From positions 4,124,001-4,188,000 of the forward strand of contig NZ_SOAU01000001.1 of assembly GCF_004364865.1 (NCBI RefSeq): a stretch of DNA of 64,000 nt, in the 5' to 3' direction. This DNA is from Ilumatobacter fluminis. Lineage in GTDB: Bacteria; Actinomycetota; Acidimicrobiia; Acidimicrobiales; Ilumatobacteraceae. Each line of letters begins with the position of its first letter. The stretch's first letter is position 1. This document shows, piece by piece, positions 44,815 through 58,794 of the stretch. Under the pieces are notes generated by a model. That model was not told the DNA's origin and searched no databases. It saw only the letters and a program-made list of their open reading frames with translations. The position numbers and the translations under genes are program-made.

Positions 44815-45360
44815 ATGAGCGATCGGGACCGCGCCGGCGGCGACGAGCGCGGCCGACCCACCCGACGAGCCGCCGGGCGAGTGCGCCGTGCTCCACGGGT
44901 TGCGCGTCGGCCCGAACAGCGAGCCTTCGGTCGTGGCGACGAGCCCCATCTCCGGTGCCGTCGTGGTGCCGAGGCTCACCAGTCCGGTGGACAGGAAGTG
45001 ATCGACCTCCGGTCCGTTCCGTTCGGCGGGCGTGTCGGGCACCGCACGCGACCCCCACCGGTTCGGTAGACCGGCGACGTTCGAGAGCCCCTTGACGAAG
45101 CTGGGCACACCACCGAACACCACGCCGGCGTTGCGCAGCGCCGTCTGCTGCCTCGCCCGGTCGGTGTCCCAGACGGCCACGGCGTTCAAAGCGCCGTTGA
45201 CGGCCTCGGCACGGGCGATCGCCGCGTCGACGAGTTCGGCGCTCGACACTTCACCGGCGTCGAGGCGCTCGACCAGCCGGACCGCGTCGTCGGTGCCGAG
45301 GGCGTCGTCGGTGAAGCCACTGATGCGATCCCCGACTCGCGAGGGAGACGTGTCGGTCAT
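44815..45360 (-). pseudogene. Truncated amidase (N-terminal 182 residues)
   Basis: The frame opens with an ATG overlapping the PhyH stop (ATGA) and reads as the first 182 residues of an amidase-signature enzyme: DAVRLVERLDAGEVSSAELV, the catalytic Lys in VPSFVKGLSNVAG, and the signature SPGGSSGGSAALVAAG ending at VPIAH. The next conserved block with the nucleophilic Ser (GGSIR-type) is missing; similarity stops at 44815, and the frame then runs meaninglessly through the DJ-1 gene. A full enzyme would be about 450-500 residues. It must be inactive as an amidase; deletion is the likely cause. Confidence 0.8.
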
Positions 45361-46256
45361 CGGGCACCGGTGGTTGCGTCGACAGGGTCGTAGAAGGTCG
45401 CGTCGTCGATCGAGGGCGTGTCGGACGCGCGGCTGCCGAAGAGCAGCTCGGGTGGGGCCAGCTCGACCCCTTCCCCGGGGTCGCCCGGGGTCGAGTAGAA
45501 CCCGAGCACCGGACCGCCGAGCGAGTACCCCATCAGCGAACGCAACTCGGCCGGGAGTTCGGCTGCGATGTGGGGCGGGCACGACAAGTACTGGTTCTCC
45601 TCCTGACGCAACCAGTTGAGCGTGTAGTGCAGCAGGACGCCGACCCGCTCGTCGGCGGTGTCGTTCCGGCCACCGCCGTGCAGCACGGTGCCGTTGTAGA
45701 GCAGGACCGAGCCAGGTTCCATCTCGGCGTAGCGGATCTCGTCGTCGGTCGGATGGCGGTCCTTGTCCCAGGTGTGGGAGCCGGGGACGAATCGGGTGGC
45801 GCCGTTCTCCTCGGTGAACTCGGTGAGCGCCCAGATGGTCGAGAACTGGGTCTCGACCGACCGGTTGAGCGCCGGACCCCACACCCCACGGTCGCGGTGG
45901 ATCTGCTGCGCTCCCTCGCCTCGGCCGATCGCGACGGCCTGGGTGAAATGGAGTTGGTGGCTGTCGCAATAGGGCGCCAGGTACTGCGACGACGATGCGG
46001 TGATCAGCGGGTGCATCGCGAGTTCGCGGCACGTCACCGAGCGCGCCATCAGTGCGCCGATCCGCTTCGTGCGGTAGCCGGCGAACTGGTTGCGTCCGAC
46101 CTCGCACGCGTCGAGGTAGGGACGCAGTTCGGTCTCGAGGCGCTCGAGGGTGTCCGACGACAACAGTCGGTCGACGATCACGCCGCCGTGCTCGTCGATC
46201 GCCTCACAGATCGAGTCCGGGTCGGTCGAGGCGGGGAGGTGGACGATGTCGCTCAC
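45357..46256 (-). CDS. Phytanoyl-CoA dioxygenase (PhyH) family protein
   Basis: A 299-residue Fe(II)/2-oxoglutarate oxygenase of the PhyH family. The iron triad is His120 and Asp122 in QIHRDRG and the distal His in TVLHGGGRN; the Arg for 2-oxoglutarate lies in DERVGVLLHY. PSGH-like ATRFVPGSHTWDKDR is typical. The substrate is unknown; the family hydroxylates acyl-CoAs and many small molecules. The GTG start overlaps the TetR stop (GTGA) and the stop overlaps the amidase start (ATGA), so TetR, PhyH and amidase formed one coupled operon. Confidence 0.88.
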   Translation of the reverse strand: MSDIVHLPASTDPDSICEAIDEHGGVIVDRLLSSDTLERLETELRPYLDACEVGRNQFAGYRTKRIGALMARSVTCRELAMHPLITASSSQYLAPYCDSHQLHFTQAVAIGRGEGAQQIHRDRGVWGPALNRSVETQFSTIWALTEFTEENGATRFVPGSHTWDKDRHPTDDEIRYAEMEPGSVLLYNGTVLHGGGRNDTADERVGVLLHYTLNWLRQEENQYLSCPPHIAAELPAELRSLMGYSLGGPVLGFYSTPGDPGEGVELAPPELLFGSRASDTPSIDDATFYDPVDATTGAR

Positions 46257-46831
46257 GCGGACACTCCTTGGTCGATCGGGGCGAGGATGGGCTCGAGGAA
46301 GGCGCGCATGGTGCGGACCTGACGGTCGTCGGGCCAGAGATCGGGGGCGACGGTGGCGCAGAGTCCGATGCCGTCGACCGCGGCGACGATCGCTCCGGCG
46401 GCGTCCTGCGGCTCGGGGTGACCGAGGTCGGCGAGGTACCGGGCGATCCGGTCCTCGATCGTGCGGTAGAAGCGGCGGTAGGCGTCCATCAGCTTCGGCG
46501 ACGACGGCGCGGCCCCGCAGTAGGCCAACCAGACGCGCCAGACGCGACGCACCTCGTCGGTCGTGGGCAGGTACAGGCCGACCCCGCCACCGAAGAAGGT
46601 CATGGCGAGACGCGAATCGCCGGCGGACATCTTGGCGGCGACGTAGTCGAGCGTTGCGACGAGCAGGTCGGACTTGTCGCGGAAGTAGTAGCCGAGCGCG
46701 CCGGTCGTCACGCCGGCCGATGCCGCGATGTCGGTCAGCTTGACGTGGTCGAGGCCGTACTCGGCGATCGCGTCGACGGCTGCCTCGAGCAGTTCGGCTC
46801 GTCGCTGATCGTGATCCACACGTCGGGGCAT
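46253..46831 (-). CDS. TetR-family regulator
   Basis: A 192-residue regulator. The N-terminal HTH is RRAELLEAAVDAIAEYG followed by VKLTDIAASAGVTTGALGYYFRDK; the rest is the ligand-binding helical domain, with IVAAVDGIGLCA as in BetI/AcrR-like proteins. It heads the PhyH operon, and a 22-bp palindrome lies 4 nt before its start, between it and the divergent monooxygenase. It most likely represses both. A TATGAT box 8 nt before the ATG suggests a leaderless message. Confidence 0.88.
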   Translation of the reverse strand: MPRRVDHDQRRAELLEAAVDAIAEYGLDHVKLTDIAASAGVTTGALGYYFRDKSDLLVATLDYVAAKMSAGDSRLAMTFFGGGVGLYLPTTDEVRRVWRVWLAYCGAAPSSPKLMDAYRRFYRTIEDRIARYLADLGHPEPQDAAGAIVAAVDGIGLCATVAPDLWPDDRQVRTMRAFLEPILAPIDQGVSA

Positions 46832-46835
46832 GTCG

Positions 46836-46857
46836 TTACATCATAGTGATGATGTAA
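46836..46857. promoter_or_regulatory. TetR operator, 22-bp palindrome
   Basis: TTACATCAT-AGTG-ATGATGTAA has perfect 9-bp arms. It overlaps the predicted -10 box (TATGAT, 46840-46845 on the minus strand) of the TetR gene and lies 60 nt before the monooxygenase start, so binding would block both directions. Confidence 0.75.
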
Positions 46858-46904
46858 AAGGGTGCAAGGGGCGGCCTGCCTCGCTGCCGACGGCGACCTC
46901 TCAA

Positions 46905-46910
46905 TACGGT
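46905..46910 (+). promoter_or_regulatory. -10 box of a leaderless monooxygenase transcript
   Basis: TACGGT ends 7 nt before the ATG at 46918. The in-frame GTG at 46909 lies inside the box, which argues for the ATG. Confidence 0.55.
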
Positions 46911-46917
46911 GAGCCAC

Positions 46918-48555
46918 ATGGGGGATGAGCGACGTGAGTTCGACGTGATCGTGATCGGCGCCGGGGTGTCGGGGATCTACCAGATCAACCGACTCGTCGA
47001 CGCCGGGTTCGACGCCGTGGTGCTCGAGGCCGACGATGACGTCGGCGGCACGTGGTACCGCAATCGCTACCCCGGCTGCCGATTCGACTCCGAGAGCTAC
47101 ACCTACGGCTACTCGTTCTCGAAGGAGCTGCTCGACGAGTGGCACTGGAAGGAACGGTTCTCGCCCCAGCCCGAGAACCTGCGCTACCTCGAGTACGTGG
47201 TCGACAAGTTCGACCTGCGCCGCCACATGCGGTTCGGGTGCCGCGTCGAACGGATGCAGTGGCACGACGACGAGCGCCGTTGGCACGTTTCGCTCACCAA
47301 CGGCGACGAGTACGTCGCCCGATTCGTCGTGGCGAGCGTCGGCCCGATCTCGCGGCCGATCATCCCCGACTTCGAGGGCAAGGACGACTTCGAGGGTGCG
47401 GCGTTCCACACCTACGACTGGCCGAAGGAGCCGGTCGAGCTGGCCGGCAAGCGGGTCGGGGTGATCGGCACCGGAGCGACCGGCATCCAGGTCATCGCCG
47501 CGATCGCACCGGAGGTCGCCGAACTGACCGTGTTCCAGCGGCGCCCCAACTGGAGTTCGCCGCTCAACAACTCCGAGATCTCCGACGAGGAGATGGCCGA
47601 CATCCGCTCGCGCTACGACAAGATCTTCGCGGCGTGCGCCGCGTCGAACGGCGGCTTCGTCCACACACCGATCTGGGGCTTCTGGGACAAGACCCCGGAA
47701 GAACGCCGGGCGATCTGGGACGACCTCTACACGCAACCGGGCTTCGCGATCCTGGCCGCCAACTTCGGTGAGATCTTCCTCGACGAGGACGCCAACAGGG
47801 AGGTGTCCGAGTACATCGCCGACCGCATCCGCCAGCGGGTCGACGACCCGGCGGTCGCCGAGAAGCTGATCCCGACCGATCACGGCTTCGGGCTGCAGCG
47901 GCTCCCGCTCGAGACGAACTACTTCGAGACCTACAACCGCGACAACGTCCAACTGGTCGACGTGTCGGAGCACCCGATCGAACGCATCACGGCGACCGGC
48001 ATCCAGACGACGGCCGGCCACCACGAACTCGACATCATCGTGTACGCGACCGGCTTCGACGTGATGACGGGGTCGTTCGACCGGATCGACATCCGCGGGG
48101 TCGACGGCCTCGCACTGAAGGACAAGTGGGCAGACGTGACCACCACGTACTACGGCCTGCTCTCGGCCGGGTTCCCGAACCTCCTCATGGTGGCGGGGCC
48201 GCAGAGCGTGTCCGGCTCGACGAACTTCCCGCGAGCCATCGAGAAGGGCGCCGACTGGATCACGGGGCTGCTCGAGCACGCCAGGGAAACCGGCATCGAC
48301 CGCATCGAGGCGAGATCCGAGCCCGAACAGGAGTGGCTCGACGAGGTCGTGACGGCACACGAACGGCTGCTGTTCCGCCGCAGCAAGGGTTGGTTCACCG
48401 GCTACAACCCGAACCTCCCCGGCCGTGGCGAAGGCACCGTGCGCTACCACGCCTACTTCGGCGGCGCCCACCGCTACGCCAAGAAGATCGACGACCTCGC
48501 CGAAGCCGGCTACCCCGGCCTCGACCTGTCGCCGAGTCGCGTTCCGCAGCTCTAG
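46918..48555 (+). CDS. Baeyer-Villiger-type flavin monooxygenase
   Basis: A 545-residue FAD/NADPH monooxygenase. GAGVSG near the N-terminus binds FAD, the type I BVMO fingerprint FEGAAFHTYDWP is exact in form (FxGxxxHxxxWP), and GVIGTGATGIQ binds NADPH. Other family stretches are DVGGTWYRNRYPGCRFD and VYATGFDVMTG. It turns ketones into esters or lactones with O2. Divergent from the TetR-PhyH operon and sharing its operator, so the two oxygenases may serve one pathway. It converges on the 2OG oxygenase, with two repeat elements between. Confidence 0.93.
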   Translation: MGDERREFDVIVIGAGVSGIYQINRLVDAGFDAVVLEADDDVGGTWYRNRYPGCRFDSESYTYGYSFSKELLDEWHWKERFSPQPENLRYLEYVVDKFDLRRHMRFGCRVERMQWHDDERRWHVSLTNGDEYVARFVVASVGPISRPIIPDFEGKDDFEGAAFHTYDWPKEPVELAGKRVGVIGTGATGIQVIAAIAPEVAELTVFQRRPNWSSPLNNSEISDEEMADIRSRYDKIFAACAASNGGFVHTPIWGFWDKTPEERRAIWDDLYTQPGFAILAANFGEIFLDEDANREVSEYIADRIRQRVDDPAVAEKLIPTDHGFGLQRLPLETNYFETYNRDNVQLVDVSEHPIERITATGIQTTAGHHELDIIVYATGFDVMTGSFDRIDIRGVDGLALKDKWADVTTTYYGLLSAGFPNLLMVAGPQSVSGSTNFPRAIEKGADWITGLLEHARETGIDRIEARSEPEQEWLDEVVTAHERLLFRRSKGWFTGYNPNLPGRGEGTVRYHAYFGGAHRYAKKIDDLAEAGYPGLDLSPSRVPQL

Positions 48556-48570
48556 CCGACGGAACGAACC

Positions 48571-48630
48571 CGGGTCGGGTGTCGCAGGGAACGGCGACGG
48601 AGTCGACGTTTCCGGAGATCACCCGACTCC
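48571..48630. repeat. 60-bp inverted-repeat element, copy B (inverted)
   Basis: Starts CGGGTCGGGTG and ends CACCCGACTCC. Read on the minus strand it matches copy A over the whole 60 bp, including the core GTCGACTCCGTCGCCGT. It lies 15 bp after the monooxygenase stop. Confidence 0.8.
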
Positions 48631-48658
48631 GGCGACGACGACGCGCCACCTGATCACT

Positions 48659-48720
48659 GGGTCGGGCGATCTCCCGAAACGCCTCGGCTGCGCCTCGCCG
48701 TTCCGTACGACACCCGACCC
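48659..48720. repeat. 62-bp inverted-repeat element, copy C
   Basis: Starts GGGTCGGGCGATCTCCCG and ends TACGACACCCGACCC, in the same orientation as copy A, with a different middle (GCCTCGGCTGCGCCTCG). It lies 28 bp after copy B and 12 bp before the end of the 2OG oxygenase gene. Confidence 0.75.
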
Positions 48721-48732
48721 AGCGGTGGCCCG

Positions 48733-49776
48733 TCAGCCGTAGTGGAGGCGGACGTTGTCGGGGTAGCTGCGGGCGAAATAGTTCCAGAGCTGCTCGCCGT
48801 AGCGATCGGGATGATGCGGGCTCGACATGTCGGCGGCCCCCGCATCGACCTCGTCCGGTTGCACCATGAACCCGGCGGCGGCGTGGCGCGGGCTGGCAGC
48901 CACCGCATCGGCGAAGCGCTGCTCGAGCGGGAGCGCGACGAGTGGCATGTCGAGCGACGGGCCGTGGAAGTAGGCGATCGACCGTCGCGCCGTCGGCGTC
49001 GCGACGCGGTGCGGCGTCGCGACGAAGTAGTTGCCGGTCATCTTCTGGAACACCTCGCCGAGGTTGATGACCAACCCGTCGTCGACGTTCGGGACAGCGA
49101 TCCACTCACCGGCGGCGTTCTGCACCTCGAGACCGGGCGTGCCGCCGGTGGCGAGGACCGTCAGGAAGCCGGCGTCGTGGTGGGCGTTCACGCCGAACTG
49201 GCCTGCCGGCGTCGGCGGATAGTTGATGACCTTGCACAGCGACATGCACTCGTCCCCGAACGCTCGCCGCAGGTGATCCTCGTCGAGGCCGAGTCCCAGC
49301 GACAAGAGCCCCATCACCCGGTCGGCGAGCTCCGCTGCCGCGTAGATCCAGCGCTGCACCGCAGCCGCGAAGCCCGGCGCGAGGTCGTCGGACGGCCACT
49401 GGTTGGGTCCGAGGAGGCGGAGGTACGGCGGCTCGACATCGACGTCGCGAGCCGGGTGCTCGGTCCAGAAGTCGAGCTGCTCGCGGATGTCGGGGCGGTT
49501 GTTCGTGCGCTCGACGCCGGTCGCCTCCCAACCCCGGAAGTGCCGCGATCGTCGCTTGTCGACGGCCTCCTTCTGTTCGAGCGGGAGTTCGAAGAAGCGG
49601 CGGGCGGCGGCGAACGCCTCGTCGGTGATCTCGGTCGGCACGCCGTGCCCGGTCACGACGGCGAAGCCGACCTCGTGGTACACGGTCGCCAGGTACTCCC
49701 CCAATCCGCCCGCGCCGAGGCGGGCCGCTTCGGCGGCCAGGTCGATCACCGGTACATCGGAGAACTCTGCGGTCAC
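48733..49776 (-). CDS. 2OG-Fe(II) oxygenase (isopenicillin N synthase-like)
   Basis: A 347-residue plant-type/IPNS-like dioxygenase. The N-terminal DIOX_N region (VPVIDLAAEAARLG, GFAVVTGHGVP) is followed by the iron site HHDAGFLTVLA (His-x-Asp), the distal His in ATPHRVATP and the 2-oxoglutarate Arg-x-Ser in ARRSIAYF. Such enzymes hydroxylate, desaturate or close rings. The GTG at 49776 is chosen because GGAGGTGA lies 5 nt before it. It follows the AztD-like gene after a hairpin. Confidence 0.88.
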   Translation of the reverse strand: MTAEFSDVPVIDLAAEAARLGAGGLGEYLATVYHEVGFAVVTGHGVPTEITDEAFAAARRFFELPLEQKEAVDKRRSRHFRGWEATGVERTNNRPDIREQLDFWTEHPARDVDVEPPYLRLLGPNQWPSDDLAPGFAAAVQRWIYAAAELADRVMGLLSLGLGLDEDHLRRAFGDECMSLCKVINYPPTPAGQFGVNAHHDAGFLTVLATGGTPGLEVQNAAGEWIAVPNVDDGLVINLGEVFQKMTGNYFVATPHRVATPTARRSIAYFHGPSLDMPLVALPLEQRFADAVAASPRHAAAGFMVQPDEVDAGAADMSSPHHPDRYGEQLWNYFARSYPDNVRLHYG

Positions 49777-49823
49777 GTCATCACCTCCGGGTGTCGAGGG
49801 GCACCCGGAGGTGACGCTATCGA

Positions 49824-49858
49824 CCGGATGCCGCCCGGTCGGATCGGGCGGCATCCGG
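49824..49858 (-). terminator. Strong hairpin after the AztD-like gene
   Basis: CCGGATGCCGCCC-N9-GGGCGGCATCCGG is a perfect 13-bp stem, lying 17 nt after the AztD-like stop and before the 2OG oxygenase. No U-tract follows, but the stem strength suggests termination or mRNA end protection. Confidence 0.65.
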
Positions 49859-49875
49859 ACGTTCGTCGTGGCGGG

Positions 49876-51336
49876 TCAGCCGGCCAGCACGACGCCGGCC
49901 GGCGCGCCGCCGACGTCGAAACGACCGAGCTCGGCGAGGCTCGAATCGAGCTCGACGATGCCGCCGTTCACGGGATCGGTGACGAAGATGTGGCCCTCGA
50001 CCACGGCGAGCTGCGGGATCGGTGCAGCACCGTGGCCCTCGGGCAACTCGAACGCGTCGACGACCGGGGTCGACGCCGTGATGGTTCCGGTGGCCGGATC
50101 GATCAGGTGCACCTGCCCGTCGATGGTCAGGACGACGACCGAGGCACCGTCCGGTGCGAGCGCGAAGCCGCGCATGTCCACCGGCAGCTCGATCGCCGTC
50201 GCCACGCCGCCCTCGAGATCGATCACGGCGAGGGCGCCGCTGCCGAGGTTGCCGACGAGGATCTCACCGGACGCGGCGAGGGTGCCGGTGCGGGCGTCGT
50301 CTGCCGAGCCCTCCGGTCGGGCGATCGCGCGCGCGTCCCAGTGGTCGTCGTGCGGCTCGAGGATCAGGACGCCGTCGGCGCACCCGAACGCGACGAACGC
50401 TTCGGTTGCCGCCTCGCCGTGGAGACCGGGGCAATCGGGGAAGCGTTGGAGCTCCTCGCCGGTCTCGAGGTCGACGACGGCGACGCCGTCCGGCAGTGAC
50501 TCGCCCTCGACCGGTGTCGTGAGCACGACGACGCCGTACTCGGCCAGCGCGACCGCGACACCGTGATGGGCGGCGCCGCTGTCGAGCGTCGCGACGACGG
50601 CGTCGTCGTACGACAGGGCCGTCTGGTCGAGCACCATCACGCTGCCGTCGCCGTCGTTGAACACGGCGAGGAGGTCGCCGTGTCCGACCACGTGGGTGGG
50701 ATCATCGACGTCGAAACCCATGTCGGTCAGGGTCGGCGTGGCGACGAAGGAGTGGAAGTGGTCGCCGTGCGGCTCGGTCCACGTGCCGGGGTCGACCACC
50801 TCGAGCCGGTCGTCGGCACGAGCCGCCGCGAGCGTGTACCGGCCGGCGTCGGACACCGCGACGGTGCCGGGCATGTCGAGGGTGGCGATCACCTCGCCGT
50901 CGCTGTAGCGCACGACGCGGACCACCGGCTCGACGGCATCGGCCACGACCAGCCGCAGCTCGGGCTCGGCCACCTCGACGGCGTCGTCGTCATGATCGTG
51001 GTCGTCCTCGTCATGATCGTGGTCCTCGTCGCCGTGATCGTGGTCGTCCTCCTCGTGATCGTGGTCGTCATGATCGTGGTCGTCATGATCGTGATCGTGG
51101 TCGTCATGGCCGTGGTCGTCGTCGTCATCGTCCTCGGCGATGGTGGTCGGCGGCGCCGTCGTCTCGGGCGGGCCGGTCGTGGGCGGCGTCGTCGTCTCCG
51201 GTGTCGTCTCGGCGGGAGCGGCGGTCGCGGCCGCCGGTTCGTCGCTCGAGTCGTCGCTGTCACCGCAGGCGGCGAGGACGACAGCGCAAACGGCCGCAGC
51301 CGCCAGCAGTCGGGGAGGTCGGGTGGATCGTGTCAT
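49876..51336 (-). CDS. aztD: Zinc metallochaperone AztD-like lipoprotein
   Basis: A 486-residue lipoprotein: the signal ends LAA-Cys24, then a linker, then a very His/Asp-rich stretch (about residues 73-121, many HDHDHDD units), then a beta-propeller (blades such as VAVSDAGRYTLAAARAD and DLLAVFNDGDGSVMVLDQ). This matches AztD, the extracytoplasmic zinc chaperone that hands Zn2+ to the AztABC importer. A Zur-like box sits in its promoter, which supports a zinc role. No AztABC genes are adjacent, so it may serve an importer elsewhere. The start at 51336 lies 8 nt after a TACGGT box. Confidence 0.82.
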   Translation of the reverse strand: MTRSTRPPRLLAAAAVCAVVLAACGDSDDSSDEPAAATAAPAETTPETTTPPTTGPPETTAPPTTIAEDDDDDDHGHDDHDHDHDDHDHDDHDHEEDDHDHGDEDHDHDEDDHDHDDDAVEVAEPELRLVVADAVEPVVRVVRYSDGEVIATLDMPGTVAVSDAGRYTLAAARADDRLEVVDPGTWTEPHGDHFHSFVATPTLTDMGFDVDDPTHVVGHGDLLAVFNDGDGSVMVLDQTALSYDDAVVATLDSGAAHHGVAVALAEYGVVVLTTPVEGESLPDGVAVVDLETGEELQRFPDCPGLHGEAATEAFVAFGCADGVLILEPHDDHWDARAIARPEGSADDARTGTLAASGEILVGNLGSGALAVIDLEGGVATAIELPVDMRGFALAPDGASVVVLTIDGQVHLIDPATGTITASTPVVDAFELPEGHGAAPIPQLAVVEGHIFVTDPVNGGIVELDSSLAELGRFDVGGAPAGVVLAG

Positions 51337-51344
51337 GACCAGCC

Positions 51345-51366
51345 ACCGTACTGAGAACGATTCTCA
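51345..51366 (-). promoter_or_regulatory. Zur box overlapping a promoter
   Basis: TGAGAA-CGA-TTCTCA (51352-51366) is a perfect 15-bp palindrome and matches the actinobacterial Zur consensus TGAAAATCATTTTCA at 11 of 15 positions. The -10 box TACGGT (51345-51350, minus strand) lies directly beside it and a TTGCTA -35-like box at 51368-51373 on the other side, so a bound Zur would block the promoter. Confidence 0.7.
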
Positions 51367-51394
51367 TTAGCAACACACACGAGACGCCTTTGCG

Positions 51395-51440
51395 TTCTCG
51401 GCGGCTCACGTCCGGGAAACCGCACCACAGCCACCGAGAA
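51395..51440. repeat. 46-bp inverted-repeat unit 1 of 4
   Basis: Starts TTCTCGGCGGCT and ends AGCCACCGAGAA, one mismatch from a perfect 12-bp inverted repeat. It is followed by a 25-bp spacer (51441-51465) that recurs after unit 3 with one base changed. Confidence 0.85.
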
Positions 51441-51465
51441 CCCAACCGCCAGGTCGACCCCCACC

Positions 51466-51511
51466 TTCTCGGCGGCTCACGTCCGGAAAACCGCACCACA
51501 GCCACCGAGAA
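51466..51511. repeat. 46-bp inverted-repeat unit 2 of 4
   Basis: Nearly identical to unit 1. It is followed by a short spacer of 10 bp, so the array is not evenly spaced. Confidence 0.85.
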
Positions 51512-51521
51512 CCACAACCAC

Positions 51522-51567
51522 TTCTCGGCGGCTCACATCCGGGAAGCCGCACCACAGCCACCGAGAA
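51522..51567. repeat. 46-bp inverted-repeat unit 3 of 4
   Basis: Two changes from unit 1 (ACATCC and AAGCC). Unit 3 plus its 25-bp spacer repeats unit 1 plus its spacer, so a 71-bp block was probably duplicated. Confidence 0.85.
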
Positions 51568-51592
51568 CCCAACCGCCGGGTCGACCCCCACC

Positions 51593-51638
51593 TTCTCGGC
51601 GGCTCACGTCCGGGAAACCGGACGGCAGCCGCCGAGAA
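51593..51638. repeat. 46-bp inverted-repeat unit 4 of 4
   Basis: The right half is diverged (GGACGGCAGCCGCCGAGAA), which makes its terminal 12-bp inverted repeat perfect. The 427-bp region from 51367 to 51793 holds this array and then the selenoprotein leader; no other gene is evident in it. Confidence 0.8.
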
Positions 51639-51793
51639 CCGGGCGACCGGGCCGGGGCCGCTGGGCCGGTGAGGCGGGCGGACCGGTCCGATCGGGAGCG
51701 GTGGAGGCGCCGGCGGTACGGTCGCAGCGAACGACCGGCCGACCGAGAGGACCCACCCGTGCCGACCACGACCATCGACGGAGCAGCGGACTG

Positions 51794-52948
51794 ATGTCGG
51801 GCGACGCTGCGATGCGGGCGTACGCCGCCACGCTGCCGGTCCCCGAGTTCGACACGACCGCGTTCACGAGATCCGACACGCCGCTGTCGGAGCGTCGGGT
51901 CGCGATCGTGACGTCCGCGGCGCTGTACCGCCCCGACCAGGAACGCTTCTCGCAGGGTGACACCGGCTTCCGAGCACTCGACCGGACCGACCGCGATCTC
52001 GTCATGGGCCACTGGAGTCCGAACTTCGATCACACCGGGTTCCAGATCGACCTGAACGTCGTCTACCCGATCGATCGGCTCGAGGAGCTGGCCGCCGACG
52101 GCGTGATCGGCGACGTGGCACCTCGCCACTTCGCCTTCGCCGGGAACCAGCCCGACACCGTCAGCGAGCTCCGTCTCGACACCGGTCCGGCGTGCGCTGC
52201 CGAGCTGCTGGCCGACGAGGTCGACGTCGTCATCTTCACGCCGGTTTGACCACTGTGCACGCGTACCGTGAGTACGCTCGCCCACGTCTTCGAAGCCGCC
52301 GGTCTGGCGACGATCGTCCTCGCCTCGATGATCGAGGTCGTCGAGAAGATGCACCCGCCCCGAGCGCTCTACTGCGAGTTCCCGCTGGGACGACCGCTCG
52401 GCCTGCCGAGTGACGCAGCCTTCCAACGACGAGTGCTCGAGCAAGGCCTGTCGCTGCTCGATGCGGCAGAACCGGTGATCGAGACCTTCCCCGAGGTGAT
52501 CGAAGCCGACGAGACGCCGATGGCGTGTTCGCTACCGCCGCGCTTCGACCCGACCCTGCCGCCCGCCGTCGACGAAGCCAATGGGCTGCGCGCTGCCTAC
52601 GACCGGTCGGTCGCCAAGCGCGGCGTGACCGAGGTGGGCCGTGCGATCACCGCCGACCAGGTGCCCGACGCCTTGGCGACGCTGCACCGCTGGGCCGAAG
52701 GTGAGCGCTGGAAGGAGGTGCCGCTCCCGGGCAAGAACACCGTCGCCGTCGCCCACGACATCCGCTCGTACTACGACGAGGCGGCGCTCCAGCTCGTCGA
52801 CGGCCCACCGCCGGGCGGGCGTGCCGCCGAGGCGTGGTTCTTCGAGACGACCGAGGCCGGCAAGACGCTGCTCGCCGCCCGCAAGGCACTGGAAGCCCAA
52901 GAGGCCCCGTTCCCCTTCTGGTTCTACATGGCCCCCGGCCACCGCTGA
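51794..52948 (+). CDS. GrdB-like selenoprotein, in-frame UGA (Sec152)
   Basis: A 384-residue protein of the glycine/sarcosine/betaine reductase selenoprotein B family, read through a UGA at 52247-52249. Before the UGA: VAIVTSAALYRPDQ, HWSPNFDHTGFQIDLNVVYP, EVDVVIFTPV. After it, in the same frame: PLCTRTVSTLAHVFEAAG, IVLASMIEVVE, CEFPLGRPLG. The motif is U-P-L-C, where relatives have Cys or Sec in the same strand-turn. A stem-loop at 52261-52277 fits the bacterial SECIS rules. Family members reduce C-X bonds through the selenol; the substrate here is unknown. ATG at 51794 overlaps the stop of an 11-codon open frame starting at GTG 51759. Standard gene calling would split this gene in two. Confidence 0.85.
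52247..52277 (+). promoter_or_regulatory. Sec UGA codon and bacterial SECIS-like stem-loop
   Basis: The UGA (52247-52249) is followed by 17 nt, then a 5-nt apical loop CGUGA (52267-52271) closed by a perfect 6-bp stem GCGUAC/GUACGC (52261-52266 with 52272-52277). Known bacterial SECIS elements have 16-37 nt between UGA and loop, a stem of at least 4 bp and a G in the first two loop positions; all three conditions are met. Confidence 0.75.
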
Positions 52949-52962
52949 CCGGGTCCCGGTCG

Positions 52963-53199
52963 TCAGTCGTCGGGGAGGTCGGCGAATCGGCGTTTGGCGT
53001 CGCGGTACCACCGCAGACCGGACACCGGCTTGCGCCAGCGAGCTTTCATCTCATCACGGGCCGGCTGGTGGGCGACGTCACCTGCCGCCTCCATCTCCTT
53101 GAGGTGTCGGTCCTGGGCGTTGATCACGTCGTCGGCCGACTCGCCGTGGTGTGCGTAACCGCACGGGCCACCGAGCTGTTTGCAGGTCATCGTCTTCAT
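52963..53199 (-). CDS. DUF1059-like small protein
   Basis: A 78-residue protein that begins MKTMTCKQLGGPCGYAHHG, the DUF1059 pattern of two cysteines and a following His that may bind a metal, then an acidic helix (SADDVINAQDRHLKEMEAAG) and a basic C-terminus longer than usual. GAGGGG lies 8 nt before the ATG at 53199. It starts 10 nt after the VOC gene stop and is likely co-transcribed with it. Confidence 0.75.
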   Translation of the reverse strand: MKTMTCKQLGGPCGYAHHGESADDVINAQDRHLKEMEAAGDVAHQPARDEMKARWRKPVSGLRWYRDAKRRFADLPDD

Positions 53200-53209
53200 C
53201 GCAAACCCC

Positions 53210-53608
53210 TCAAGCCTGAGCGATCCGGACGAGGTTGCCCGACGGGTCGCGGAAGGCACAATCGGTCACACCCCAGGGCTGCGGCTTCGGTTCCTGGAGC
53301 ACCTCGGCACCGCTCGCCCGAACCCGTTCGAACGTAGCGTCGAGGTCGTCACTGCGGAAGATGGCCGCCTGCATCGCTCCCTTGGTGACCAGGGAGAGCA
53401 ACGCATCGCCGTCGGCCTCGGAGCGGCCGCCGTGCGGATACGACAGGACCACGTCGACGGCCTGGCCCGGAGCACCGACGGTGATCCACCGGAAGTCACC
53501 CTTGCTGACGTCGTTGCGCACGTCGAGGCCGAGGGCATCTCGGTAGAAGGTCAGCGCTTCGTCGCCGTCGTGGACGGTGATGAACATGGTCGAGACAGAA
53601 ACGGTCAT
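53210..53608 (-). CDS. VOC-family (glyoxalase-like) protein
   Basis: A 132-residue vicinal oxygen chelate protein: VSTMFITVHDGDEALTFYRD, then ALGLDVRNDV, and the second half ending WGVTDCAFRDPSGNLVRIAQA, with paired beta-alpha-beta-beta-beta modules. Such proteins act as dioxygenases, glyoxalases or resistance proteins. The start at 53608 is supported by a TACGGT box 6 nt upstream. It follows an AraC regulator gene. Confidence 0.85.
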   Translation of the reverse strand: MTVSVSTMFITVHDGDEALTFYRDALGLDVRNDVSKGDFRWITVGAPGQAVDVVLSYPHGGRSEADGDALLSLVTKGAMQAAIFRSDDLDATFERVRASGAEVLQEPKPQPWGVTDCAFRDPSGNLVRIAQA

Positions 53609-53614
53609 GTCGCC

Positions 53615-53620
53615 ACCGTA
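53615..53620 (-). promoter_or_regulatory. -10 box of the leaderless VOC gene
   Basis: TACGGT on the minus strand, 6 nt before the ATG at 53608, with no Shine-Dalgarno sequence. Confidence 0.55.
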
Positions 53621-53660
53621 CGGACGGGCCCAGTCGGCCCGCTTCTCCATTCCTGCTCGA

Positions 53661-54077
53661 TCAGGCTGACATCGATGAACGTGAACGGCGGGGCCGGAGC
53701 TGTTCTTTCGCCACGCACGGCGGCACGACTTCGAGATCACTGTGGTCGAGTCCTCGATAGCTCGATGGCGACAGGCCGGTGATCTCGGAGAACTTCGAGC
53801 TGAAGGAGCCGAGCGAGGTCGCCCCGACCGCCATGCACGCCTCGGTGACGGTCGCTCCGTGCCGCAGCAACTCCTGTGCTCGTTCGATGCGCCGGGTCAT
53901 CAGGTAGCTGTACGGCGTCTCGCCGTACACGTCGCGGAAACGTCGCGAGAAGTGGGCGGGTGACATCGCTGCCACCTCGGCCATCGCGGGTACGTCGAGC
54001 GGCGATGCGTACTCACGGTCGATCAGATCACGGGCCCGCCGCAGATGGGCGAGTTCGGCAACCGCCTCTGGAGTCAC
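53661..54077 (-). CDS. AraC-family DNA-binding protein (HTH only)
   Basis: A 138-residue protein that is almost all AraC double HTH: LDVPAMAEVAAMSPAHFSRR with FRDVYGETPYSYLM, then VTEACMAVGATSLGSFSSKF and TGLSPSSYR. There is no ligand domain, which is common in short AraC proteins such as SoxS. It ends 52 nt before the VOC gene and may control it. GTG start at 54077 with a TACGGT box 6 nt upstream. Confidence 0.88.
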   Translation of the reverse strand: MTPEAVAELAHLRRARDLIDREYASPLDVPAMAEVAAMSPAHFSRRFRDVYGETPYSYLMTRRIERAQELLRHGATVTEACMAVGATSLGSFSSKFSEITGLSPSSYRGLDHSDLEVVPPCVAKEQLRPRRSRSSMSA

Positions 54078-54083
54078 GTGTCC

Positions 54084-54089
54084 ACCGTA
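54084..54089 (-). promoter_or_regulatory. -10 box of the leaderless AraC-type gene
   Basis: TACGGT on the minus strand, 6 nt before the GTG at 54077. Confidence 0.55.
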
Positions 54090-54123
54090 CGCCGCGACGA
54101 CGAGTACGGGGGGCCGGCCTCGA

Positions 54124-55206
54124 TCACGTTCCGGTGGGGATGGTGAGGACGATCTTGCCGACGTGGTGTTTCGCGACGAAGGCGTCCTGGGCGTCGACGA
54201 TGCGTTCGAGCGGATAGGTGGCGGCGATCAGCGGGCGGATCTCACCGCGCTCGATGTAGCCGACGAGGTTCGCGAACACCTCGGGCGGCTGGTACGTGGA
54301 ACCGTGCAGGCTGAGGTCTTTCAAGTACAGATCACGCACGTCGAGCTCGACGATCGGTCCGGCGATCGCACCCGCCGTCACGTACCGACCGCCGTTGCGC
54401 AGCAGCCGTGTCACCGAACCGAAGAACGAGCCGGCGACCACGTCGACGATGGCGTCGAACGACGACTCACCGAAGCGCTCGGCCGGGTCGACGTCGCGGC
54501 CGATCACCTCGTCGGCGCCGAGCCCGAGAACCGCGTCGGCCTTGTCGGCACCCGCCACGGCGATCACGGTGGCGCCGCGCCGCTTCGCCAGTTGCACCGC
54601 AGCGTGTCCGACGCCGCCCGATGCGCCCGTGATCAGGACTCGCTCGGCACCGAGTTCGATCCGGTGCAGCATGTTCTCGGCCGTCGAGTAGGCGCATGGG
54701 ATCGAGGCGAGCTCGACGTCGGTCCAGTCGCAGTCGACGGCGTAGGTCTCGTCGGTGTGAGCAACGGCGTACTGGGCGAACGCACCGTCGTACTCCGAAC
54801 CGAACACGGTCGTGCTGAGCGGCTCGGTCGAGTAGGCGGTCTGCATCGTCGTCACGATGACCCGCTCCCCCACCCGGCTCGGGTCGACGTCGGCCCCGAC
54901 AGCGACGATCCGGCCGCACGCGTCGGCGCCCTGGATACGCGGGAACTCGAGTGCGCCGGCCCAGCCTTCGTCACCCGACTGCGAACCACCGGCGGCGTCG
55001 GCCGAACTGCCGGTCACGTCGCGCGCGTACCAACCGGTGCGCGTGTTGATGTCGGTGTTGTTGACGCCGGCGGCCGCGACCCGGATCAACACCTGATCGG
55101 GTGCGGGCGTCGGCACCGGCGCGTCGGTGACGTACTCGAGCTGATCGGTGCCACCGAAACCGCGGAGGTGGACGGCGGCCATCGTGGTCGGGATCGCGTC
55201 GCTCAT
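54124..55206 (-). CDS. Zinc-independent medium-chain dehydrogenase (quinone oxidoreductase-like)
   Basis: A 360-residue MDR-family oxidoreductase. The GroES-like half has AAGVNNTDINTRTG and QGADACGRIVAVGADVD; the NADPH-binding motif is VLITGASGGVGHAAVQLAKRRGA. The catalytic zinc Cys/His pattern of alcohol dehydrogenases is missing, so it is a quinone oxidoreductase or enoyl reductase type. It follows the halohydrin-dehalogenase-like gene by 45 bp on the same strand. Confidence 0.88.
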   Translation of the reverse strand: MSDAIPTTMAAVHLRGFGGTDQLEYVTDAPVPTPAPDQVLIRVAAAGVNNTDINTRTGWYARDVTGSSADAAGGSQSGDEGWAGALEFPRIQGADACGRIVAVGADVDPSRVGERVIVTTMQTAYSTEPLSTTVFGSEYDGAFAQYAVAHTDETYAVDCDWTDVELASIPCAYSTAENMLHRIELGAERVLITGASGGVGHAAVQLAKRRGATVIAVAGADKADAVLGLGADEVIGRDVDPAERFGESSFDAIVDVVAGSFFGSVTRLLRNGGRYVTAGAIAGPIVELDVRDLYLKDLSLHGSTYQPPEVFANLVGYIERGEIRPLIAATYPLERIVDAQDAFVAKHHVGKIVLTIPTGT

Positions 55207-55251
55207 GCACCGTCCAGGGTGCCAGGTCGACGAGGTCGACGCGCCAGAACG

Positions 55252-55917
55252 TCAGAGGGTCCAGCCGCCGTCGGTGGGCACGATCGTGCCGAACACGTAG
55301 GACGCCTCGGGTGAGGCGAGCCACCACAGCACCGACGCCGCCTCGGCTCCTCTGCCGAGGCGTTGTGCGGGCACGTTCGTCCGCAACGACGCCTGGAAGT
55401 CGGGATCGGCCACGGTGTCGGGCGGGAAGTACGACGGGTTCTCGATGAAGTTGGGGGCGATGCCGTTGACCCGCACCCCGTGCCGTGCCATCTCCTTGCC
55501 GACGCTGCGCACGAGTTGGAGCTGGTGCGCGCGTGCCGCCTCGTAGCCAGCGATCGGATGCGACGACGACCGGATCGCCGTCGCCGACGCCGGGACGACC
55601 ACCGCACCCTCGCTGCGTTCGACCATCGGCGGCAGGCACGTCGAGAACAGCCAGTACAGCGGTCGGACGAGCCGGGCGTCGAGGTCGTCCGTGACGGCGT
55701 CGTCGTGATCGACGATCGACGCCACCGTGATCGACGCCTCGAGATTCGCGACGACGACGTCGAACGGACCGTGCTCGGCGACGAACCCCTCGACGTCGGA
55801 GCGCGACCCGAACGGTTCGGTCCGGACGACGACGTCGTCACCGCCCGCTCGGAAACGTTCGACGGCGGCCGGCCCGACGAACTCGTCGGCGTCGGTGATG
55901 AGCACTCGGCGGGACAT
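55252..55917 (-). CDS. Halohydrin dehalogenase-like SDR protein
   Basis: A 221-residue SDR-fold protein without the normal Gly-rich NAD motif. Instead Thr8-x4-Phe13-x-Gly15 (TDADEFVG) fits the T-x4-(F/Y)-x-G motif of halohydrin dehalogenases, and Ser111, Tyr125 and Arg129 form the Ser-Tyr-Arg triad with Tyr-x3-Arg instead of Tyr-x3-Lys. Ser-Tyr spacing is x13, one more than the usual x12. IAPNFIENPSYF and AQRLGRGAEAASVLWWLAS resemble HheC. These enzymes make epoxides from halohydrins and can open epoxides with azide, cyanide or nitrite. Start at 55917 by the TACGGT box. Confidence 0.75.
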   Translation of the reverse strand: MSRRVLITDADEFVGPAAVERFRAGGDDVVVRTEPFGSRSDVEGFVAEHGPFDVVVANLEASITVASIVDHDDAVTDDLDARLVRPLYWLFSTCLPPMVERSEGAVVVPASATAIRSSSHPIAGYEAARAHQLQLVRSVGKEMARHGVRVNGIAPNFIENPSYFPPDTVADPDFQASLRTNVPAQRLGRGAEAASVLWWLASPEASYVFGTIVPTDGGWTL

Positions 55918-55924
55918 GTCGGTC

Positions 55925-55930
55925 ACCGTA
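55925..55930 (-). promoter_or_regulatory. -10 box of the leaderless halohydrin dehalogenase-like gene
   Basis: TACGGT on the minus strand, 7 nt before the ATG at 55917. The ATG at 55926 in the same frame lies inside the box and is therefore not used. Confidence 0.55.
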
Positions 55931-55939
55931 CCGGTGGCA

Positions 55940-56980
55940 TCAGCCGAGGGCCGACGAGGCGCGCACTTCCCATTCGAAGGCGTCGTCGCCGAGGTCGAGG
56001 CGACGACGCACGACGAGCCGGCGGTCCTCCATCGCAGCCAGCCCCTCCCACAGCGCGTTCCAACCGTCGAACACGACCGGGTGGACCGTGGCCGGGTCGA
56101 ACAGACGCCACTGCGAGAGCCGGACGGTCGGCGAGGGCGCGCCGGTCACGTCACAGGTCGGACCGTGCGCGTCGAGGAGCCGACCGAACCGCTCCTCGAA
56201 CGAGCGGTCGTCGCCGAGCGTCGCCATCACGCTCTGATGGAACTGCATCCCGATCTGGTGACCGACCACGACCGCCACGCTGCGCGTCTCGGCCGGTCCG
56301 AGCACCTCGGTCATCGCCGGCAGGATCGTGTGGATGTAGTTCATTGCGTAGTTGCGTTCGACCTTGGCGAGGCGAACCGGATCCCACGACGGCGTCGGCA
56401 GGGTCGCCGCCGGCCCGGGTGGTTGCTCGCCGGGTCGGAACCGCACGCGGTCCTCGGGCGACAGTGGCTCGGTCTCTTCGATGTAGTAGCCGACCAAGCC
56501 GGGTTGCCCGTCGGTGGTCTGCGAGGTGGCGACGAAGCCGAGCCGGTCGTTCCCGAGTGACACCCCGTTGTGGCCGTGCCAGCCGCGCAGCATCGCCCGA
56601 CTCAGCTCGGTGGGGATGCCACAGACGGCGGTGCCGTCGAAGATCCAGCGCGGTGGGAGGTATCGAACCCACGACTTCGTGTCGGACTCCGGGATCCACT
56701 CGACGCGCACGCCGCCGAGCGCGTTCGACAGCACGTGGTACTTGGCGCACGCCACGGCGTCGGGCTCGTCGGTCAGGCCGAGCTTCTCGAGACCCGGGTG
56801 GAACGCCTCGAGGTGCTGGTTGCGGAACAGCCGGAAGACCACCTCGGCGGCCGGCGCGGTACCGATGCGGGTGACCATCCCGAGCAGCAGACCGGTGAGG
56901 TAGCGGTGGTACAGCTCGGCGAGTGCCGACCATGCGGCGGCTTCGTCACCGAGTTCGGTCGAGGTCGTGTCGTTCCTCAT
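55940..56980 (-). CDS. Unknown protein in the TetR-Rieske locus
   Basis: A 346-residue soluble protein that is not recognised. It is helical at the start (AAAWSALAELYHRYLTGLLLG), has a central part with AKYHVLSNALGGVRVEWIPE and WHGHNGVSLGNDRLGFVAT, and a stretch AVVVGHQIGMQFHQSVM with several His. AGAGGA lies 8 nt before the ATG. It starts 21 nt after the TetR stop, so it is probably in the TetR operon and linked to the substrate of the divergent Rieske oxygenase. Confidence 0.65.
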   Translation of the reverse strand: MRNDTTSTELGDEAAAWSALAELYHRYLTGLLLGMVTRIGTAPAAEVVFRLFRNQHLEAFHPGLEKLGLTDEPDAVACAKYHVLSNALGGVRVEWIPESDTKSWVRYLPPRWIFDGTAVCGIPTELSRAMLRGWHGHNGVSLGNDRLGFVATSQTTDGQPGLVGYYIEETEPLSPEDRVRFRPGEQPPGPAATLPTPSWDPVRLAKVERNYAMNYIHTILPAMTEVLGPAETRSVAVVVGHQIGMQFHQSVMATLGDDRSFEERFGRLLDAHGPTCDVTGAPSPTVRLSQWRLFDPATVHPVVFDGWNALWEGLAAMEDRRLVVRRRLDLGDDAFEWEVRASSALG

Positions 56981-57001
56981 GATCGGGGTCCTCTCGGATC
57001 G

Positions 57002-57610
57002 TCAGCGGCCGGCCCAGCCCTTGACGAGGAGGTCGAGCGTGGCGTCGATCATCTCGTCGAGGGTGAGTTCGCCGTCGGGGTCGTAGGTGCGGCACAGCGT
57101 GTTGAGGGCGCCGAAGAACGCCGATGACGCGACGACCGGGTGCAGGTCGCGCAGGTCGCCGGCGGCGACCGCCTCGCGGACGATCGCACGGGCGGCCTCC
57201 TCGTGCTCGTGCAACAGTTCGGCGGTGCGGTCGTGCGCGGCGAGCAGGTCGACGTTGCTGATGATCAGCTGGCCGGACGGCCGCTCGACGGCGAGTCGGA
57301 CGTGGGCCCGGCCGAAGGCGGCCAGCCGTTCGAGCGGCGATGCGTCGTCGCCGACCGAGCGGGCGGCCTCCTCGCGGACCGCCCGCAGACCATCTTCGAG
57401 CACAAGGGCGAGCAGGGCGTCGCGGCTGTCGACGTAGTAGTAGAGCGCTCCTTTCGAGAGCCCGACCCGTTCGCCCACCCCGGCGAGCGTGGTGCCGGCA
57501 ATGCCCGACTCGCTGAGTTCGGCCTCGGCGGCGGCGATGATCAGATCGCGACGCTGTTCGCGCCGTTTCTCGGCTCTCGTCGGAGCGTCGGGGTTGACAG
57601 TTTCGACCAT
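57002..57610 (-). CDS. TetR-family regulator
   Basis: A 202-residue regulator with HTH IAGTTLAGVGERVGLSKGALYYYVDSR and a TetR-type ligand domain. Its own start codon lies inside a 17-bp palindrome (57602-57618), and the start of a divergent Rieske oxygenase is only 20 bp away, so autoregulation and control of the oxygenase are likely. A TATTAT box lies 7 nt before the ATG, so the message appears leaderless. Confidence 0.9.
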   Translation of the reverse strand: MVETVNPDAPTRAEKRREQRRDLIIAAAEAELSESGIAGTTLAGVGERVGLSKGALYYYVDSRDALLALVLEDGLRAVREEAARSVGDDASPLERLAAFGRAHVRLAVERPSGQLIISNVDLLAAHDRTAELLHEHEEAARAIVREAVAAGDLRDLHPVVASSAFFGALNTLCRTYDPDGELTLDEMIDATLDLLVKGWAGR

Positions 57611-57622
57611 GGGTCGAATAAT
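57594..57622 (+). promoter_or_regulatory. Promoter of the leaderless Rieske oxygenase gene
   Basis: TTGACA (57594-57599, inside the TetR coding sequence) and AATAAT (57617-57622) are separated by 17 nt; the ATG lies 8 nt after the -10 box. The minus-strand -10 box of tetR (TATTAT, 57618-57623) overlaps it almost fully. Confidence 0.7.
57602..57618. promoter_or_regulatory. Probable TetR operator, 17-bp palindrome
   Basis: TTCGACC-ATG-GGTCGAA has perfect 7-bp arms and covers the TetR start codon and the spacer of the Rieske promoter, so the bound regulator would block both. Confidence 0.65.
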
Positions 57623-57630
57623 AGACCACC

Positions 57631-58794
57631 ATGCAACGGGAGATGGAACTCGAGATCGGCGACCGCATCAACGACCTGGTCGTCAACGGCCCGGCACCGG
57701 CCACCACCGGGTTCACCGAGCTCGACCCGGCGGTGTACACCGACCCCGAGCGGCATGCGCAGGAGATGGCTGCGATCGGCGGCTCCCCCGTCGCCGCGCT
57801 CGCCTCGAGCGAACTCGCCGCGCCGGGCGACTTCGTCACGACCACGCTGGCCGGTGTGCCGGTGATCGTCACTCGCGATCGGTCCGGTGACGTCCACGCC
57901 ATGCGCAACGTCTGCGCCCATCGAGGCGCCACGGTCGAAACCCGCGCGTCGGGTTCGGCACGGATCTTCTCGTGTGGCTTCCATGCCTGGTCGTACGACC
58001 TCGACGGCTCGCTCCGCTCGGTGTCCGACCCGTCGCTGTTCTCCACCGAGCCCTGCACACAAGGACTCCGGACGCTCGGCTGCGAGGAACGCCACGGGAT
58101 CATCTGGGTCACCCCCGACGCCGATGCCGAGTCGCGGCCGATCGCCGACTGGCTCGGGCCCGAGGTCGACCGGATGTTCACCGAACTCGGACTCGGCGAG
58201 ATGGTGCACTTCGCAGCGACCGAGTACGACCTCGGGTGCAACTGGAAGCTGCTCACCGACGGCTTCATGGAGATCTACCACCTCAAGTACCTGCACCGGG
58301 ACTCGATCGCTCCGTACTTCCCGGCCAACATGACGACGATCGGCGACTTCGGCGACCACTTCGGCGGCTGGCTCCCGAAGAACCGGTTCCTGAAAGAACT
58401 GGCCGAGCGCCCGCGCGAACAGTGGGAGGTGCTGCGTCATCTGACCGGCGCGTTCATCCTGGTGCCCGGCACGGTCGTGCAGTGGCAAGCCGGTCACGTG
58501 GAGCTGTTCTCGCTCCGCCCGCATCCGACCGATCCGACCCGCACGATCGCCCGCTTGACGATGATGGTTCCGGCCGACCGGATCGACGAGACGGAGCTGT
58601 GGCAGCGGAACTGGGAACGCGTCTGTGTGACGATCCCCGACGAGGACTTCGCCGCGGCCGTCGAGGTGCAGGCCAACATCGACGCCGGTGCCGTCGACAC
58701 GCTCCGCATCGGCGCCAACGAACACGGCATCGCACGACACATCGAGGCGGTCACCCGTGTGAGCGTCGCCCGACGCGAACCCGCCCTCTCCTGA
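57631..58794 (+). CDS. Rieske aromatic ring-hydroxylating oxygenase, alpha subunit
   Basis: A 387-residue oxygenase component. The Rieske centre is Cys95-x-His97 and Cys115-x2-His118 (CAHRGA, CGFHAW). The mononuclear iron site is LTDGFMEIYHLKYLH with His217 and His222; Asp210 is the bridging residue in ring hydroxylases. It needs a reductase and ferredoxin, which are not adjacent. Substrate may be an aromatic, a sterol-like or a quaternary ammonium compound. Expressed from a leaderless divergent promoter shared with TetR. Confidence 0.92.
   Translation: MQREMELEIGDRINDLVVNGPAPATTGFTELDPAVYTDPERHAQEMAAIGGSPVAALASSELAAPGDFVTTTLAGVPVIVTRDRSGDVHAMRNVCAHRGATVETRASGSARIFSCGFHAWSYDLDGSLRSVSDPSLFSTEPCTQGLRTLGCEERHGIIWVTPDADAESRPIADWLGPEVDRMFTELGLGEMVHFAATEYDLGCNWKLLTDGFMEIYHLKYLHRDSIAPYFPANMTTIGDFGDHFGGWLPKNRFLKELAERPREQWEVLRHLTGAFILVPGTVVQWQAGHVELFSLRPHPTDPTRTIARLTMMVPADRIDETELWQRNWERVCVTIPDEDFAAAVEVQANIDAGAVDTLRIGANEHGIARHIEAVTRVSVARREPALS

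Follow-up and report, generated by a model that had tools for sequence, protein, structure and literature searches.

Proline reductase and glycine reductase use a pyruvoyl subunit. Selenocysteine (Sec) forms of the proline reductase protein PrdB, with a UxxC motif, are abundant in sea water, where the accessible sections of two surveys give 42 Sec sequences (PMC1088965) and 235 (PMC2398784), and those of a 2021 survey assign 6.4% of marine selenoprotein genes to proline reductase (PMC9402790). According to the sections available from two further studies, proline reductase occurs in 110 organisms and transfer of the Sec trait between actinobacteria is listed (PMC5029168), and 12 selenoprotein families were counted in Actinobacteria (PMC1794560). 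As the marine surveys already list Sec PrdB, the kind of protein that we describe here is known; the novelty lies in the subfamily itself, in its architecture and in the argument against its identity as a proline reductase. The accessible text of the review PMC13188914 makes no mention of Actinobacteria, nor, for such terms, does that of PMC12013277. Our literature search, which covered few subscription journals, returned no selenoproteins of Ilumatobacter or Microthrix, and neither the long-form subfamily nor its partner-free state was found in the parts of the literature accessible to it.

The gene lies on a 64-kb stretch of Ilumatobacter fluminis DNA (referred to as "the window"), from a genome of 4,775,416 bases in a single contig, with a stated completeness of 99.97%. 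One phase is kept throughout, from ATG 51794 through 151 codons to TGA 52247-52249, and then through 232 codons to the stop TGA 52946-52948 (Table 1). Re-reading of 51794-52948 thus confirmed the original prediction, which described frames of 151 and 232 codons in the same phase, split by a UGA alone. It had also foreseen that a standard pipeline would begin the second half at GTG 52268; this is indeed the mechanical start, and it opens a 226-aa frame. With the UGA inside the gene, standard annotation would yield two broken pieces of one redox enzyme. By itself, the frame layout is weak evidence of recoding in a GC-rich window: in all frames of both strands of the 64 kb, 33 of 1322 TGAs (this one included) follow 151 or more open codons and precede 232 or more. 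Given that the layout and the single-sequence fold (see below) are ordinary, the Sec case rests on comparison among homologues. A simple promoter scan of 51300-53100 found no promoter, and a search of 51700-53000 against Rfam at a lax threshold gave five weak matches, every one below gathering score.

Table 1. Features of the selenoprotein gene, in window positions, and of a second locus, in genome positions.
Feature	Position	Strand	Remarks
PrdB-like selenoprotein gene (predicted)	51794-52948	+	384 residues, one internal UGA (putative Sec152); about 47-80% identity to full-length homologues
N-terminal alpha/beta domain, residues 29-237	51878-52504	+	common to PrdB/GrdB; TIGR04483 match 16-224
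UGA, predicted to be read as selenocysteine	52247-52249	+	TGA 142, Cys 9 among 151 loci; Sec machinery in genome
U-P-L-C putative redox motif, Sec152 and Cys155	52247-52258	+	at N-end of helix 153-168, after strand 145-149 (model)
Candidate bacterial SECIS apical stem-loop, 6-bp stem	52261-52277	+	52261-52266 / 52272-52277, loop CGUGA 52267-52271
C-terminal all-helical extension, residues 239-384	52508-52945	+	absent from PrdB and short paralogues
Molybdopterin oxidoreductase L172	G000:C1:1378177-1379448	minus	in-frame TGA in CNRTUHAPSV

We collected homologues by tblastn with the fused protein. At E 1e-10 it matched 54 genomes among 148 from the order, and at E 1e-6 it matched 77 among 396 from the phylum; the best 80 of 91 loci were taken from a genome-contig collection. 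Among loci L020-L129, where L020 is the window gene itself and the fragment L126 does not cover the column, every one of the 109 loci that cover it has TGA there, the least similar at 36% identity (103 distinct proteins, given near-duplicates between collections). A further 30 loci (L130-L159) have TGA in 27 cases and TGC in three. In 12 more, TGA occurs six times (two of these being annotated PrdB) and Cys six times (TGC in L160-L164, TGT in L165). It had been proposed that relatives carry Cys or Sec at this position, and across the 151 loci fetched, window gene included, the column holds 142 TGA, 8 TGC, 1 TGT and no other residue or stop; some weaker matches of the order and phylum searches bear extra stops (two or three TGA, or TAG/TAA). 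The nine Cys forms are every stop-free, column-covering match of the order and phylum tblastn searches. A handful of the members were found in MAGs under the labels Chloroflexi, Acidobacteria, Gammaproteobacteria, Akkermansiaceae, Deltaproteobacteria or Poseidoniales, and binning errors may account for some of these.

Bacterial SECIS elements, as set out in the accessible part of a review, have a loop of 3-9 nt, a stem of 4-16 bp and a G within the first two loop positions, lie 16-37 nt from the UGA and have an MFE of at most -7.5 (PMC13188914). The hairpin GCGUAC-CGUGA-GUACGC was found as originally described, with a 6-bp stem, a CGUGA loop and 17 nt between UGA and loop. The claimed agreement with the SECIS limits also held, as the 5-nt loop begins with CG and a 39-nt fragment folds at -10.2 kcal/mol. 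Folding of the window sequence alone was uninformative, the energy being no better than that of shuffles (z 0.10, -0.41 and 0.75 for three fragments). The suggestion that the stem might covary in relatives was borne out. In an alignment of 35 rows hand-chosen from 109 loci (32 distinct sequences), 97.4% of stem cells are paired versus 91.4% in shuffles. Changes on both sides occur in three of the six stem pairs, a number reached by 4 of 500 shuffles, and neither the covariation score nor the count of double-change cells was matched by any of the 500; the count of further pair types is not above chance (500 of 500 shuffles reach its value). In detail, pair 18-28 is C-G (18) or U-A (14), pair 19-27 is A-U (29) or G-C (2), and pair 16-30 is C-G (31) or G-C (1). 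Shifting the stem partners lowers pairing to 77% or less, and a 6-bp stem with a 5-nt loop placed elsewhere in the 210 nt never pairs above 85%. Among 74 distinct 39-mers, all six pairs form in 67, five in 6 and four in 1. Third bases and amino-acid changes are coordinated, Arg CGT occurring with Thr ACG, and CGC with GCG or GTG; random synonymous codons drawn at local usage form all six pairs with probability 0.002-0.009.

The hairpin also separates the two forms of the gene. A stem of at least 6 bp inside the SECIS loop, spacing and G limits is present in 126 of 142 TGA forms versus 2 of 9 Cys forms, in a scan whose TGA set is dominated by close relatives. At 4 bp or more, a length at which hairpins are common by chance, the counts are 139 of 142 versus 8 of 9. 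The three TGA forms without a hairpin include the annotated PrdB L170. The full-length Cys homologue L137 retains two of the six pairs and has no qualifying hairpin. In distant short paralogues, L146 and L167 among them, a CGUGA loop stands at 17 nt on stems of different sequence, as though loop and distance were constrained features.

The original prediction held that the cell makes Sec and named the genes by which this could be checked, and all four were identified by searching the genome. Profile searches found selA (405.6 bits versus a cut-off of 267.9) directly upstream of selB on the same strand (271.9 versus 242.25), together with selD (324.5 versus 125). A tRNA-Sec scored 66.6 bits versus a cut-off of 47, and ARAGORN reports it as tRNA-SeC with anticodon TCA (UCA). 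The machinery is thus complete. A 54-bp tandem repeat of 3.3 copies lies at the 3' end of the selB frame (L001 707-886). Among eight molybdopterin oxidoreductase matches of the genome, one (L172) has an internal TGA and reads CNRTUHAPSVVGL, which we take to be the Sec site of a formate dehydrogenase (alpha subunit). With a TGA within this motif, L172 is probably a second selenoprotein, so the genome appears to have at least one besides that of the window.

The original prediction described selenoproteins as seldom reported in Acidimicrobiia-like actinobacteria. Sec use proved not to be rare in this order: of 148 sampled genomes, 86 have a selA that exceeds its cut-off. At E 0.001, selA was detected in 52 of the 54 homologue-bearing genomes, some of which have only paralogues or weak GrdB-type matches, versus 37 of the 94 others (Fisher p 3e-13, 148 genomes). 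The two homologue-bearing genomes with no selA match are G001 (84% complete) and G063 (78% complete). In hand-chosen phylum genomes with homologues, selA was found in 23 of 23, over cut-off in 22. All nine genomes with Cys forms (L137, L149, L153 and L160-L165; G040 and G121 included) have selA, so loss of Sec did not follow loss of the machinery. Sec thus appears to be used regularly across an environmental order that is large and has been little studied.

Other explanations of the interrupted frame have to be weighed against these observations. A nonsense mutation that split a Cys-type gene would need a single-base step (TGC to TGA), and a TGA flanked by in-phase open frames is no rarity in the window, as counted above. 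Such a pseudogene is nevertheless extremely improbable, given the same TGA in every covering locus of L020-L129, the covarying hairpin and the conservation of sequence on either side of the UGA among homologues. One long product would also be expected if UGA were read as some other amino acid, through a changed code or general readthrough. We give this hardly any credence, because TGA is the terminal stop of the window gene and of 58 of 109 loci in all (TAG ends 32 and TAA 19), the replacement is Cys in nine of nine stop-free matches, and selA, selB and tRNA-Sec are in the genome. The 226-aa frame opening at GTG 52268 could in principle be a second working gene; against two separate genes stand the strand-turn-helix and UxxC motif, which bridge the gap, and L137, which is a single uninterrupted frame, and the chance that they exist is in our view minute. 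In combination, the comparisons among homologues make it very nearly certain that 51794-52948 is one gene and that its in-frame UGA is read as Sec.

Positions 152, 153 (Pro) and 155 (Cys) are invariant in 36 aligned sequences, and U-P-x-C is conserved. The AlphaFold2 model of the protein has a mean pLDDT of 88; its C-terminal part (about 145 residues) consists of helices only, with pLDDT 85.5. The original prediction placed both halves of the protein in one family. This stood insofar as the match to the PrdB profile spans the UGA, and failed for residues ~239-384, which match no Pfam or NCBIfam profile at E 0.001 within the window protein and, when residues 239-384 were searched alone, no NCBIfam model at E 0.01. 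At E 1, Pfam gave scattered weak matches in relatives, the best being ScsC_N (0.0052) in one of 36 sequences, and we set these aside. By sequence, no PDB chain matches the window protein at E 1, and a profile built from alignment A3 retrieved only 2f6i (E 0.36). In Foldseek, no match of the whole model reached E 0.001; the best, the photocobilin 8j2y from an Acidimicrobiaceae bacterium, was rejected, at only 1.3e-3 and TM 0.28. The best VIA-align score of the whole model (Z 7.9) is tied across many Rossmann-like chains and so says little beyond alpha/beta. For the C-terminal part alone, the best values were E 3.9 with Foldseek and Z 2.7 with VIA-align (233 chains). The absence of a structural match for this modelled part does not show that it has a new fold.

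The protein had been labelled GrdB-like. It proved nearer to PrdB than to GrdB, and it reaches neither curated cut-off. The window protein scores 32 bits with PF07355, above the gathering score of 22, and all 36 aligned members also match this family at E values of up to 1, the best being 3.8e-10. Its best NCBIfam model is that of PrdB, TIGR04483 (E 2e-33, residues 16-224). These matches could mean that the protein is a true D-proline reductase PrdB or a glycine/betaine/sarcosine reductase B subunit, and the annotated PrdB L170 of Peptoclostridium, like the window gene, stands without prdA, in its case within 4 kb; distance to PrdA alone therefore cannot exclude a PrdB role. The scores argue against this identity: TIGR04483 gives 115.8 bits versus a cut-off of 300, which two annotated PrdB controls exceed with 310 and 408 bits; the four other NCBIfam models are also below cut-off, GrdB TIGR01917 among them with 47.5 bits versus 602.2. 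As no NCBIfam model reaches its cut-off on the window protein, the subfamily is likely to remain mis-called.

The motif, UPLC and not UGTC, and the distribution of the PF09338 family (PrdA/GrdE type) also speak against a PrdB or GrdB identity. We detected no PF09338 match anywhere in the genome of the window, and 14 control genomes were likewise silent in the same search. The model finds annotated PrdA at 9e-27 and matches 15 of 396 phylum genomes; 14 of these 15 have a match to the window protein, 13 of them weak. Among the 64 phylum genomes that match the window protein at E 2e-14 or better, a single one (G420) has PF09338. The homologues fall into two length classes, as 116 of 152 loci match past residue 300 and the other 36, which include both annotated PrdB and four GrdB-type loci, end by residue 237. 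In a 139-row tree that covers the shared core alone, a 103-row clade (100/100) holds the window gene apart from PrdB and GrdB. Cys requires six changes in this tree, at least four of them forced by starred branches, and long branches leave the deep order unsure. We thus consider it very improbable that the protein is a true PrdB or GrdB; the best description is a PrdB-like selenoprotein of a stand-alone kind, which is common in Acidimicrobiia.

Within flanks of up to 3 kb in the best 80 of 91 loci, we found no gene that accompanies the selenoprotein in more than 18 of them. In one clade, mainly marine, PhyH, SDR, EamA and MFS genes and a fifth gene without a Pfam match are retained nearby (16-18 loci each), and other sets of loci have an AMP-ligase (18), an enoyl-CoA hydratase (12) or an acyl-CoA dehydrogenase (7). 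The ten neighbors scanned in the window comprise oxygenases, dehydrogenases, a glyoxalase, a TetR regulator and two genes without a match. Neighboring genes hint at catabolism and fix no substrate. The oxygenases around the gene, at 45357-58794, are of PhyH, FMO-like, 2OG-Fe(II) and Rieske/ring-hydroxylating types, and an SDR and a zinc alcohol dehydrogenase occur in the same interval.

Just upstream of the gene, at 51395-51640, four copies of a palindromic element of about 46 nt are arranged head to tail, the last of which folds at -40.3 kcal/mol (z -8.1). The 21-base core of the element has 38 matches in the genome with up to two mismatches versus none for the reversed control, and many of the matches stand in arrays about 71 bp apart. 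We classify this element as a probable REP-like repeat. On the minus strand at 49876-51336 is a 486-aa protein with, by eye, a lipoprotein-like start, a long His/Asp-rich stretch and no Pfam match, which is perhaps metal-binding.

The start of a helix is the usual location of a thiol/selenol redox centre. From its parts, we infer that SelB with Sec-tRNA(UCA) would bind the hairpin behind the UGA, so that Sec is inserted at residue 152 with no termination. The Sec152-Pro-Leu-Cys155 pair would then sit at the helix start of a PrdB/GrdB-type alpha/beta domain, where a selenenylsulfide/thiol cycle may reduce a small organic substrate without a pyruvoyl subunit, and a probable role of the helical C-terminal part is to shape the substrate site or an oligomer. 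To this putative role as a thiol/selenol reductase we assign an even chance.

Compared with known systems, the window protein shares with PrdB (TIGR04483) the alpha/beta domain, a U-x-x-C motif with Sec from an in-frame UGA, and its best profile match. The two annotated PrdB differ from it in having U-G-T-C where the window gene has U-P-L-C, and at 237 and 241 aa they are without its helical extension; in genomic setting they differ from each other, as the prdB of Ligilactobacillus stands with prdA and that of Peptoclostridium has no prdA within 4 kb. With GrdB (PF07355, TIGR01917/TIGR01918) it shares the PF07355 match over the gathering score and the Sec at the homologous column in L130-L133; unlike the window gene, those loci have the motif U-G-T-x-T-R-C and an adjoining PF09338 gene. 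The "proline reductase PrdB" of the Sargasso, GOS and 2021 marine surveys resembles it in Sec, UxxC and marine abundance, and PF07355 is named for it in the accessible part of PMC2398784; these proteins were named by nearest family. We put at roughly equal weight, for and against, the proposal that this subfamily, which is common among the Acidimicrobiia, is a stand-alone Se-dependent reductase separate from the proline and glycine reductases of the Stickland type, that it has a helical substrate domain of its own and works without a pyruvoyl partner, and that much of the marine "PrdB" may be the same enzyme or close kin with other chemistry. The comparison makes it possible to test whether the selenoproteins called "PrdB" that abound in marine samples are in fact proline reductases.
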